Shown one piece after another: positions 19,112-53,971 of a stretch of 64,000 bases of DNA. Location of the stretch: NCBI RefSeq assembly GCF_000771405.1, contig NZ_JDUI01000001.1, positions 1-64,000 on the forward strand. The letters are read 5' to 3'. Origin of the DNA: Bifidobacterium pullorum DSM 20433 (GTDB lineage: Bacteria; Actinomycetota; Actinomycetes; Actinomycetales; Bifidobacteriaceae). How positions within the stretch are numbered: the stretch's first letter is position 1; every line of letters begins with the position of its first letter. The translations under genes and the position numbers were made by a program. Below the pieces are notes generated by a model that searched no databases, was not told the DNA's origin, and saw nothing but the letters and a program-made list of their open reading frames with translations.

Positions 19112-19193
19112 GGTTCGCACTACTTCGGGATTACCTCTTCCAAGTCCCGGCTTTCCGCCCCTGTCGGATTTGCATCCCGAAGTAGTGCGAACC
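19112..19193. repeat. 20-bp perfect inverted repeat in the S10/LURP-one divergent region
   Basis: Arms 19112-19131 and 19174-19193 are exact reverse complements (GGTTCGCACTACTTCGGGAT), separated by 42 bp. The right arm fills the spacer just before the TACAAT -10 element of the LURP-one gene; the left arm is about 45 bp from the start of the S10 peptidase. A shared operator bound by a DNA-looping regulator is the simplest idea. Confidence 0.75.
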
Positions 19194-22306: not shown

Positions 22307-22421
22307 TGCGACAACACGCGCACTAGCCAACCACGTAATCGCCGTGTTGTCGCACGCTTGCGACAACACGCACGCCAGACAACCACTCAAACGCCGTGTT
22401 GTCGCACCCTTGCGACAACAC
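22307..22421. repeat. Tandem palindrome array with 52-bp period
   Basis: Three copies of TGCGACAACAC (22307, 22359, 22411) alternate with two of the reverse complement GTGTTGTCGCA (22344, 22396). The copies are exactly 52 bp apart, with loops of 26 and 4 nt in turn. The segments between are only partly conserved (about 18 bp differ). It fills the region between the MagIII-like gene (divergent, start 22208) and the GNAT gene (start 22491). No Cas genes, and the variable parts are far too short for CRISPR spacers. Confidence 0.85.
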
Positions 22422-22490
22422 GCACACGTGATTATGGTGATAAGCCAATGGATTGTAACGGTAGTAATCCGATAACAAGAGGGAATCTTC

Positions 22491-24022: not shown

Positions 24023-24190
24023 AGCCAAACGGCATGATCCACACGCCCACTCCGAACAAGCATGGCAACTCGTGACCGACGGCTGCATTTTGGTCGTCGA
24101 GCACCGAATAACCCACCACCGGACACGCAATCTGGCCCATACCCTGGGAAACGCTCGGAAACGTTGGAATACCGGGGTTTTCAGGCAACG

Positions 24191-24220
24191 AAAAAGGGTC
24201 CCGGGCGATGCCCGGAACCC
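24191..24220 (-). terminator. Rho-independent terminator of the tRNA-Ala pair
   Basis: On the minus strand GGGTTCCGGGC and GCCCGGGACCC form an 11-bp stem (one mismatch) with a 3-nt loop, followed by TTTTT. It lies 9 nt past the 3' end of the second tRNA-Ala. Confidence 0.85.
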
Positions 24221-24228
24221 TTAAGATG

Positions 24229-24301
24229 TGGAGCTAAGGGGATTCGAACCCCTGACCCTCTCCATGCCATGGAGATGCGCTACCAGCTGCGCCATAGCCC
24301 C
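24229..24301 (-). tRNA. tRNA-Ala (anticodon GGC), second copy
   Basis: A 73-nt cloverleaf: acceptor GGGGCTA/TAGCTCC, D arm GCGC-AGCTGGTA-GCGC, anticodon stem TCTCC/GGAGA with loop ATGGCAT (anticodon GGC), T arm with TTCGAAT, discriminator A and no encoded CCA. It is identical to the copy at 24334-24406 and followed by a strong terminator. Confidence 0.95.
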
Positions 24302-24333
24302 GTATTCAATTGTGAGAAGCCTTGCGGCTTTCG

Positions 24334-24406
24334 TGGAGCTAAGGGGATTCGAACCCCTGACCCTCTCCATGCCATGGAGATGCGCTACCAGCTGCGCCAT
24401 AGCCCC
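24334..24406 (-). tRNA. tRNA-Ala (anticodon GGC), first copy
   Basis: Identical in all 73 nt to the copy 32 bp downstream. The bases just 5' of both copies are also related (GTATTCAATT versus GTGTTCAGTT on the plus strand), which points to a recent tandem duplication of about 105 bp. Upstream on the minus strand, TTGCTG and TAATGT 17 bp apart (around 24444-24472) could be the promoter. Confidence 0.95.
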
Positions 24407-34779: not shown

Positions 34780-34811
34780 CCGCTTAGTCCCTGCACCAAT
34801 ACCACCCACAA

Positions 34812-34941
34812 CACGCCCGGCCTCTCCGGACCCTGACACTTTTCGGCCACATCCTCAATCAACAAAACGTTGAAATTCCAACGATTCTGTTGATTGGATC
34901 ACGGTCACAAAGTGTCAGGGTCCGGAGAGGCCGGGCGTGTA
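34812..34941. repeat. 130-bp nested inverted repeat with 32-bp perfect arms
   Basis: Arms 34812-34843 and 34910-34941 are exact 32-bp reverse complements. Inside them CAATCAACA (34857-34865) pairs with TGTTGATTG (34889-34897), and CGTTG (34869-34873) with CAACG (34880-34884). It lies between convergent thrC and an ABC permease gene, so it can act as a two-way terminator. No target-site duplication is seen at its ends. Long terminal arms also fit a small non-autonomous mobile element. Confidence 0.8.
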
Positions 34942-48099: not shown

Positions 48100-48248
48100 G
48101 TCGTTCCTTTTCATCCGCCGCTGCTGCCAACGGCCGTTCATCGTTACCGATAGCCTACATCGTCGCCCGAACCGCACGGTGTCCCGTCGCGTCGGTCCTC
48201 GCTGGACCCCGACGACGGGACACCGTCACGATTCGGAAGTATGAATCG

Positions 48249-52351: not shown

Positions 52352-52906
52352 TCAGCCGCGACGGTTCCGAACCGTCACGGACGGCGCCGTCGAGCGGGAG
52401 GCCATGCCACCGCGCTCCAGCGCTTTCGGCTTGTTGAACCGGTCCAGGGACAGGGTCTCGCGGGTGGCGCTCACCTTGTCGGCCATCGTGACCAGATACC
52501 CTTCGATGTACCGCGGCGGCAGCGGGGTCAGCGGGAACATGTGCCGTGCGATGCTGTCACGCTCCACATGGTTGAGGTCGCCGAAGTCGCGCATCGCGTT
52601 CTCCAATGCGGCACGTCCATGGGTGAACCCGTGCAGCCGGTGTTCGCCGTTGTCCCAGTCATGCCAGTCGTACAGGAAGTAGTCGTGCAGGAGCGCGGCA
52701 CGGATCAGCGAGCGCGGATCGACGCGCCGCCACAGACGCAGCCGGTCGGCCATCCACACCGCCAGACAGGCCACGCGGATCGAGTGCGCGAAGGTGGTCA
52801 CGGCCCCATGCTGGTAGCAACGACGTTCGATCATCATGTTCTCGTGTGCGATGATCTCCCGGCCATGCCGATGCACCAGCATGCGGATCTGTCGTCGTGT
52901 CAGCAT
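52352..52906 (-). CDS. HD domain phosphohydrolase-like protein
   Basis: A 184-aa HD protein. H54 (AHSIRVA), the HD pair in LIRAALLHDYFLYDW and a downstream Asp (MADKVSA) give the metal-binding pattern. These enzymes hydrolyse nucleotides or phosphate esters. ATG at 52906 follows GGGGGAG. It ends 13 nt before the CmpB-type gene and is probably co-transcribed with it. The C-terminal 30 residues are basic and without order. Confidence 0.85.
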   Translation of the reverse strand: MLTRRQIRMLVHRHGREIIAHENMMIERRCYQHGAVTTFAHSIRVACLAVWMADRLRLWRRVDPRSLIRAALLHDYFLYDWHDWDNGEHRLHGFTHGRAALENAMRDFGDLNHVERDSIARHMFPLTPLPPRYIEGYLVTMADKVSATRETLSLDRFNKPKALERGGMASRSTAPSVTVRNRRG

Positions 52907-53383
52907 GACTGCTCCCCCAACTATGTCGGCGCAGGCGCGCGGTATCGTCAATCGTCGCTCCCGATTGTAGGAGATGCCGCGGTCACCGGCAGTCGTTCGT
53001 TCGGATGAGAATCACGACTCGAGACCCCGCCATCATTGGCAGTGGCCCTACTGCGGTGGTACGGAACCGTTACGCAGAGGTTCTTGATGGTTCCGTACCA
53101 GGTATACGTGGTACGGAACCATCAACAGCCCATTCTGAGAGTTCCGTACCGTACCACGGACCACAACCCCGATCCACAAGGTTGATATTTCAAGGGTGGA
53201 TGTCTTGCCGAACCGTCGTGGTACGGTACGGAATCCTTGAAGCGGGCGTAATGCCATTCTGTACCACGTCCTTGTGGTACGGAACTTTCGAACTCGGGAA
53301 TCATCCCTTCCGTACCACGGCATCACTCGATTTGCCCCATGGATAACGAATATTGCGTCCTCGAGCCAAGGGCAGCCAACAGG
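52907..53383. other. 477-bp non-coding region with palindrome array
   Basis: No credible gene on either strand. The first 130 bp hold the HD-gene promoter area; 53056-53319 is the palindrome array (listed apart); the last about 60 bp lead to the stop of the Nim-like gene. Confidence 0.7.
53056..53319. repeat. Array of GGTACGGAA dyads with 51-52 bp period
   Basis: GTGGTACGGAACC occurs at 53056-53068 and 53108-53120 (52 bp apart), its complement GTTCCGTACC at 53090-53099 and 53141-53150 (51 bp apart), then GGTACGGAA at 53225-53233 and 53276-53284 (51 bp apart), and TTCCGTACCAC at 53308-53318. TTCCGTACCGTACCACG (53142-53158) has an exact 17-bp complement at 53217-53233. All pairs can form hairpins. 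It is not coding, and its sequence is unrelated to the array at 22307, but the period is the same. Confidence 0.85.
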
Positions 53384-53866
53384 TCATTCATGAACCTTGC
53401 CGGTGACATGGTCGAGGTCGATCCTCCAGACGGTCACGCTGTTCACCTGTTGGTCGGTGAACGTCACGTCCGGCATGTCCGCCTGATGGGCCATCAGCAG
53501 CCGCAATCCCTCGCGGCGTTCCTCCATCGCCTCCACAATCGACGCGGTGCCGGTCGCCACCACGGAACGGAATGCTTCGCCCCAACCGCAAGGTGTGCGC
53601 CCCTCAATTGGCCTGCAATCCGTACGCATCGATACCGCCACAGGCAATGCGTTGCCGGCGGTCCGGATCGCATCGATCTTGCGCCCGTGCGACGCCGAGT
53701 GGAAATACAACGTCGGCAGACCATCGGGTCGTATCGCGTAACCGAAGTTCATCGGTATGATGGTCATCCCCTCCGCGTCCGCATATGCGACGTCCACGAT
53801 GCGGCAATCCCGGATGATGCGTTCGACCATCCCCGGATCGACGACCTCCCGGTCGGTGCGCCTCAT
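53384..53866 (-). CDS. Nim-like/pyridoxamine 5'-phosphate oxidase family flavoprotein
   Basis: A 160-aa split-barrel protein. MRRTDREVVDPGMVERIIRD is the usual N-terminus of NimA-like proteins, and TIIPMNFGYAI, LYFHSASHGRKIDAI and GEAFRSVVATGTASIVE are the core strands. Members bind FMN or heme; some inactivate 5-nitroimidazoles. ATG 53866 is chosen for that family N-terminus although only a weak GGCGG lies upstream; ATGs at 53920 and 53929 are possible. Monocistronic. Confidence 0.8.
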   Translation of the reverse strand: MRRTDREVVDPGMVERIIRDCRIVDVAYADAEGMTIIPMNFGYAIRPDGLPTLYFHSASHGRKIDAIRTAGNALPVAVSMRTDCRPIEGRTPCGWGEAFRSVVATGTASIVEAMEERREGLRLLMAHQADMPDVTFTDQQVNSVTVWRIDLDHVTGKVHE

Positions 53867-53971
53867 CCGCCGATGGCAGCCGGCAACGGTGCGTTCATCA
53901 TTGCGTCGTGTCGATCCCATATGAACCATCGTATATGCGCGCCGCGGGGATGCCTGCGAAAAGACCGCCCG

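Follow-up and report, generated by a model that had tools for sequence, protein, structure and literature searches.

The array of inverted repeats at 53056-53319 of the window, a term that here denotes the whole 64-kb stretch of DNA analysed, is a dispersed intergenic element of Bifidobacterium, and on balance we think it a non-autonomous one that serves as a protein-binding platform on duplex DNA. It belongs to a large, scattered family of short intergenic elements in bifidobacteria, many of which share a central site between mirror-image repeats whose spacing is kept though their sequence varies, as would suit a scaffold for proteins seated on one face of the DNA.

The array occupies the gap between two ORFs on the minus strand, an HD-domain ORF (52352-52951) and a Pyridox_ox_2 ORF (53384-53929), and is composed of eight half-sites resembling GGTACGGAAC, five of them exact, whose orientations alternate strictly (+ - + -, then again + - + -; Table 1). 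An earlier note on this DNA had reported an array at this place with a period of 51-52 bp, both of which hold, but had counted seven copies rather than eight and made no mention of a longer step of 115 bp between the halves, which interrupts the period in mid-array. Half-sites of the same orientation are 52 bp (53058/53110) and 51 bp (53090/53141) apart in the left half, and 51 bp apart in both cases (53225/53276 and 53256/53307) in the right. The array is hardly a product of chance, because the window yields 27 exact inverted repeats when arms of 10 nt or longer are counted, whereas ten Markov shuffles yield 5-12, and because exact GGTACGGAAC half-sites number 40 in the window's own genome (G000) against seven for the reversed pattern.

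Table 1. Positions of arrays, half-sites, units and cores in the window
Feature	Position	Strand	Description
Family A element, whole	53056-53319	.	Eight alternating half-sites flanking central core; similarly built relatives exist
Half-site 1	53058-53067	+	
Half-site 2	53090-53099	-	
Half-site 3	53110-53119	+	
Half-site 4	53141-53150	-	
Half-site 5	53225-53234	+	GGTACGGAAT
Half-site 6	53256-53265	-	ATTCTGTACC
Half-site 7	53276-53285	+	
Half-site 8	53307-53316	-	CTTCCGTACC
Unit 1	53058-53099	.	GGTACGGAAC (53058-53067) + inverted GTTCCGTACC (53090-53099)
Unit 2	53110-53157	.	GGTACGGAAC (53110-53119) + inverted extended half-site GTTCCGTACCGTACCAC (53141-53157)
Central gap, fixed length	53158-53217	.	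Between two extended motifs; start-to-start 76
Window core, degenerate copy	53178-53197	.	AAGGTTGATATTTCAAGGGT; minus strand ACCCTTGAAATATCAACCTT, 3 mismatches to AACGTTGRAATWYCAACGWT; inside the central gap
Unit 3	53217-53265	.	Extended half-site CGTGGTACGGTACGGAA (53217-53233) + inverted ATTCTGTACC (53256-53265)
Unit 4	53276-53316	.	GGTACGGAAC (53276-53285) + inverted CTTCCGTACC (53307-53316)
Family C element	34811-34940	.	32-nt perfect arms 34811-34842 and 34909-34940; core 34866-34885 (AACGTTGAAATTCCAACGAT), near-perfect symmetric
Family B array	22307-22422	.	TGCGACAACACG-N24-CGTGTTGTCGCA, period 52; only weak core-like match adjoining (PWM rank 13)
Family D dyad	19112-19193	.	GGTTCGCACTACTTCGGGAT-N42-inverse; poor core match within (PWM rank 43)
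Lone core	24160-24179	.	Two tRNA genes and a terminator-like hairpin lie upstream; exact arms of 8 nt or longer absent

Copies of GGTACGGAAC, whose family we call A, mostly adjoin other half-sites in their own genome and are seldom solitary. In family A units, as selected under a limit on mismatches, the inner GGTAC hardly varies; the halves are separated by a gap of 21 in 49 of 56 units, and mostly by about 19-25 in other families. The extended motif TTCCGTACCGTACCAC is found in three of 112 genomes of the genus, and facing pairs of it stand 75-76 bp apart, start to start, at seven loci of the own genome (the window included) and at one locus of G064, with 127 bp (76 + 51) at one own locus. 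The genome G057 carries the motif elsewhere, and its gap orthologous to that of the window, of about 136 rather than 435 bp, is without the array. Among named records, B. pullorum subsp. gallinarum alone has an exact match to the central signature.

The conserved feature in the middle of these elements came to light on inspection of the fixed gap of family A loci, where a conserved string gave the first sight of a core, a 20-bp quasi-palindrome of the form AACGTTGRAATTYCAACGTT or AAYGGCGGAATTCCAAGGATT. The pattern AAYGGCGGAATWYCAAG, with one mismatch allowed, matches 96 of 112 genus genomes against four control matches in total, individual places being drawn from among the matches listed. The own genome has 34 copies of the core 16-mer at two mismatches (control 0) and, at three mismatches, 61 strand-matches to the symmetric form AACGTTGRAATWYCAACGWT (control 0), near-palindromic sites here scoring on both strands and one of the matches being the degenerate copy in the array; 13 complete genus genomes have 7-32 strand-matches each to the core at two mismatches (control 0-1). 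A position weight matrix (PWM) built from 155 core copies puts the copy in the array, which has the expected offset, sixth among 127,942 window positions, and fifth under another background. Of nine further family A loci, five score 13.8-29.2 with this matrix, L030 5.2, L016 -1.9, L018 -4.6 and L019 -9.4, as compared with 40 random 600-bp pieces of the window whose best scores have a median of -7.1 and a maximum of 23.1; a clear core is thus absent by PWM from L018 and L019, two of the nine. At one mismatch the core 16-mer occurs in 32 of 61 genomes sampled from the family, among them the own and six other genus genomes. Matches outside the family are near background, the 20-mer being found in 18 of 91 genomes from other families of the order, mostly once or twice (at most seven times), with five control matches.

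The relation of core and arms was examined in 156 core copies, which are not a random sample: they draw on a single locus from each genome in part of the genus and family, on the own genome, and on ten genomes selected mostly because they had many matches. The core is flanked by exact inverted arms of 10 nt or more in 70 of these copies, compared with two of 156 once right flanks are swapped; the remaining 86 have no such arm pair, so that core and arms are separable. When arms of at least 9 nt are taken, the right gap exceeds the left by 4 in 29 of 79 cases and by 3-5 in 37, and the difference is -6 in ten. A difference of +4 places the dyad of the arms on the centre of the core, between GRAA and TTYC; arm pairs are most often centred in this way, and off-centre ones are shifted in 10.0-bp steps. 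Off-axis differences form 39 distinct pairs of genome and value, with a Rayleigh Z of 9.6 at 9.95 bp, and 31 pairs without the own genome, with Z 14.2 at 10.0 bp and a phase of 4.1 equal to the main mode; these Z values are somewhat generous, as the period was scanned and some values come from one family. In the own genome, where some of the stretches surveyed were chosen near known arrays and the sample is biased accordingly, cores sit in at least four arm families of unlike sequence (A, C, D and E), and a further family, B, is mostly coreless, its core score by PWM being at background in five of seven loci.

The array at 22.3 kb that the earlier note had compared with this one is real, with 16 copies of TGCGACAACACG against one in the control, and it belongs to family B. 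A family B array at another locus (L040) lies between two tandem DAHP synthase genes, both PF00793. The family D dyad recurs at L141, L142, L143 and L150 as well as in other own stretches, and a further dyad family of the own genome, with arms like TTTGTCCGAATCGGGGGATTCTT and a loop of about 33 nt, occurs at L378:7458, L379:8858 and L380:11374. Two strong inverted repeats of the window, at 72-121 (19-nt arms) and 48176-48226 (14-nt arms), have no evident relation to the arm families. An operator-like 16-bp dyad, TCACCTTTTGCTTGAC, with inner repeats of ACGATTGTCAAG, is found at L383:17330, and the perfect palindrome AGCGTTGGAATTCCAACGCT is repeated, perhaps within a mobile element, at G006:C1:856480, 857419 and 1638272 and at G001:C1:1218100.

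What recurs among the families is a distance. At loci picked for their arm family, as also for the dyad spans given below, the commonest distance between half-sites of the same orientation is 51 bp in the own genome (GGTAC; 35 of 80 distances, 11 loci), in G064 (9 of 16, three loci), in G021 and G032 (GCAAC; 4 of 4, six of ten loci), in G017 (GACTCA; 8 of 8, six of 20 loci) and in G040 (GTCACG; 6 of 7, seven of ten loci), and 50 bp in G037 (GTCTCC; 2 of 2, five of eight loci). A period of 50-51 bp thus occurs with five half-site strings. A second peak at 56 in G000 and G064 comes from the extended motif, and 66 of 97 short dyads in element regions have a span of 41, 43 or 45, shuffles giving 12 dyads of any span in range. 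GGTACGGAAC, GGGACGCAAC and GGGACTCAAC are alike and could belong to a single lineage in drift, a likeness that does not extend to the half-sites of G040, G037 and the own family B. The period is not universal: by eye, own families D, E and G are single dyads and family C repeats at about 16-17 bp. The suggestion of the earlier note that a common architecture lies behind the two unlike dyads of the window is nevertheless borne out by the return of a distance of about 51 bp with differing half-sites in several species. The match of periods was to be put down to chance if dyads in general had no preference for 51-52 bp, and such a preference is found, with its peak at 51 in most families, 50 in G037 and 52 in family B. 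That the arms are read by related proteins, all from a single regulator or nucleoid-protein family, as was also proposed there, would fit them best.

The core also stands alone, at what appear to be sites of the host. A tRNA gene lies within 250 bp of it in 18 of 124 loci, raw counts that have no computed background and include some orthologues or duplicates; in eight of the 18 the core is 5' of the tRNA at 78-105 bp, with tRNA-Tyr at 105 bp in four loci, and arms of at least 10 nt occur in none of the 18 as opposed to 50 of the 124 overall. In several species, and in another genus, the core is directly upstream of an ABC-F gene that, by its look, we take to be ettA. The window has a lone core of this kind at 24160-24406, where it lies just beyond the terminator-like hairpin and next to two tandem tRNA genes of near-identical sequence. 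We take the core for a host site of greater age, which the elements carry in their middle; it probably marks a global DNA-binding protein whose sites include those by tRNA genes and ettA.

The platform that we prefer might work as follows. A conserved host dimer would bind the 20-bp core, both in elements and at the lone sites by tRNA genes and upstream of ettA. Inverted half-sites flank the core in helical register, several families repeating every 51 bp or about five turns, which would set bound dimers on one face of the DNA and could join core and arms in one complex, possibly by looping or bridging, with a conceivable effect on the nucleoid or on transcription. The families, which differ chiefly in half-site sequence, would presumably be read by diverged proteins of one kind, and whole elements would be copied into new intergenic places, gaining or losing units.

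Some copies suggest duplication of this sort. In G017 five of seven aligned copies are similar by eye over several hundred bases, and in G040 two copies are similar by eye between their arms, which points to duplication of entire elements at these loci, themselves picked for their arm family. In four pairs of orthologous elements from G021 and G032, identity is 69/72 in the core, 257/309 in the half-sites and 452/737 elsewhere, and blocks of tens of bases have been gained or lost. The strongest rival is a MITE-like element, moved by a DNA transposase that would recognise the arms as its ends and doing nothing for the host, which we hold to be possible though the less likely account. The likeness of the G017 and G040 copies beyond the arms and the shorter orthologous gap of G057 are in its favour, but conservation is at the centre rather than the ends, the core is also solitary at host sites by tRNAs and ettA, and a target-site duplication was not demonstrated, the empty site of G057 being too diverged to show one.

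Neither a mobiliser nor a binding protein was found. Of 61 proteins predicted as neighbours, 40 were scanned in Pfam; no transposase or recombinase was among these 40, which are mostly metabolic, transport and information-processing proteins and include one LacI regulator (at L039), NusG, RbpA, NucS and a Y-family polymerase, with one protein lacking a match. Most of the recurrent ORFs beside arrays were rejected as candidates, since they came from a single locus represented by overlapping copies, extended through the repeats or belonged to an ABC-F neighbour; three small clusters of recurrent ORFs were also seen (L001/L133/L156, L011/L126/L155 and L019/L066/L126). Inspection of the ORFs predicted between closely spaced core pairs, with a gene caller crude enough to miss the Pyridox_ox_2 ORF of the window, found no common gene. 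A phage origin was likewise set aside: a viral collection matches the core 16-mer in 92 stretches and TTCCGTACCGTACCAC in six, numbers read as background without a formal control, and in the same collection an arm 20-mer has no match and a neighbour protein no relative. In seven complete genomes the core has a weak excess towards the contig start (KS p 4e-4, n=94), a bias discounted as lengths are mostly rounded, the origin is presumed to lie at the contig start and orthologues do not count as independent observations.

A wider version of the preferred platform is rather speculative, and we would not expect it to prove correct: a genus-wide chromosome-organising system, in which a conserved dimer at the core would be joined by fast-diverging arm-binding proteins whose specificity switches between species and families under a constant geometry (51-bp period, 10-bp register, fixed centre), the arrays serving as self-spreading loading sites or boundaries.

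A classical REP or BIME origin, in which short palindromes act as single-stranded hairpins spread by a Y1 (RAYT) transposase, is improbable. Dispersed intergenic palindromes in alternating orientation, families confined to few species and units gained or lost are what it would lead one to expect, but the Y1_Tnp domain was found in none of three carrier genomes (G000, G057 and G064) by a search whose control was positive in five of 14 genomes, the half-sites of a unit do not covary, and a hairpin would not predict phasing at 10 bp. In family A the halves of a unit pair at 488 of 672 positions against 512 expected from shuffled units, at 226 of 455 against 246 when anchored on GGTAC, at 489 of 684 against 513 with another filter, and at 690 of 1068 against 688 with the loosest, where there is no association either way. 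Selection for hairpins in this family was accordingly rejected, the halves pairing no better than shuffled ones.

It is more improbable still that the element is a structured RNA or a transcription terminator. Pairing of the palindromic arms within a transcript is conceivable, one unit orthologous between G021 and G032 has a compensatory double change, and mismatches within units are more often G.T (34) than A.C (18), although these come from overlapping, non-independent seeds. Mismatches between central arms, however, are A.C in 57 cases and G.T in 56, with no strand-specific wobble, family A units have no overall compensatory change, and Rfam matches at gathering score, in the window and 18 element loci, are to tRNAs only. 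Nor was a strand or orientation bias seen among 29 own cores, of which the crude gene caller places eight in tandem forward, eight in tandem reverse, six in convergent and three in divergent contexts and four in sequence called coding. That the arrays are operators through which ordinary local regulators control the adjoining genes seems equally improbable, for although the half-sites resemble dimer operators and the neighbour of the array at L039 is the LacI regulator, neighbour functions vary within one family, all gene orientations occur and a single core is common to several families. Because half-site changes are not compensatory, no strand bias was seen and a Y1 transposase was found in none of the three carriers, a double-stranded protein-binding platform, like REP elements with an IHF site, is favoured over an RNA or a single-stranded hairpin.

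Set against known systems, the array is by its repeats no CRISPR, its half-sites alternating and degenerate where CRISPRs have near-identical direct repeats and unique spacers. The sites of Noc/ParB-type or other architectural proteins are likewise tens of short palindromes around the chromosome, but arms and phased arrays are not known to be features of those systems. The RIB/RIP elements of E. coli consist of REP sequences with an IHF site in between. The present elements differ in that a 20-bp quasi-palindrome, not known to resemble the IHF site, forms their centre, the arms vary from family to family, there is 10-bp phasing of arms with core, and no Y1 transposase was found in the three carriers. 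They share with RIB/RIP an intergenic place and a layout in which inverted repeats enclose a site for an architectural protein of the host; here that site, though conserved, is putative. Because the Y1 transposase was not found, we do not file the element as a RAYT-mobilised REP. REP/BIME sequences and REPINs with their RAYT (PMC2817692, PMC3116915) are also species-specific palindromic families, alternating, regularly spaced and intergenic, and the present elements too are dispersed intergenic palindromes often in alternating clusters; they differ by the missing Y1_Tnp domain, by unit loops of about 19-25 nt and, in many, by a conserved central core. GTAG and CGTC REPs form palindromic families as well, the CGTC type likewise without a dedicated transposase, and CGTC REPs have stems of 8-9 bp and loops of 4-5 nt (PMC3733652), compared with the gap of 21 that prevails in family A; no unpaired GTAG or CGTC tag is apparent by eye at the ends of family A and B units, and 'Bifidobacterium' or 'Actinobacteria' has no match in the main text of PMC3733652.

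In the open-access literature searched, which includes PMC3733652, PMC6006769, PMC5746004 and PMC2788695, no account of such elements in Bifidobacterium was found. Bifidobacteria gain a class of dispersed palindromic elements of their own, not found in that literature, whose geometry stays constant as the recognised sequence changes, which raises the question of how the specificity of a DNA-binding protein evolves in step with the numerous sites that it recognises across a genome. By analogy, the element may work in the manner of the RIB/RIP type, with repeats arranged about a site for a protein of the host.
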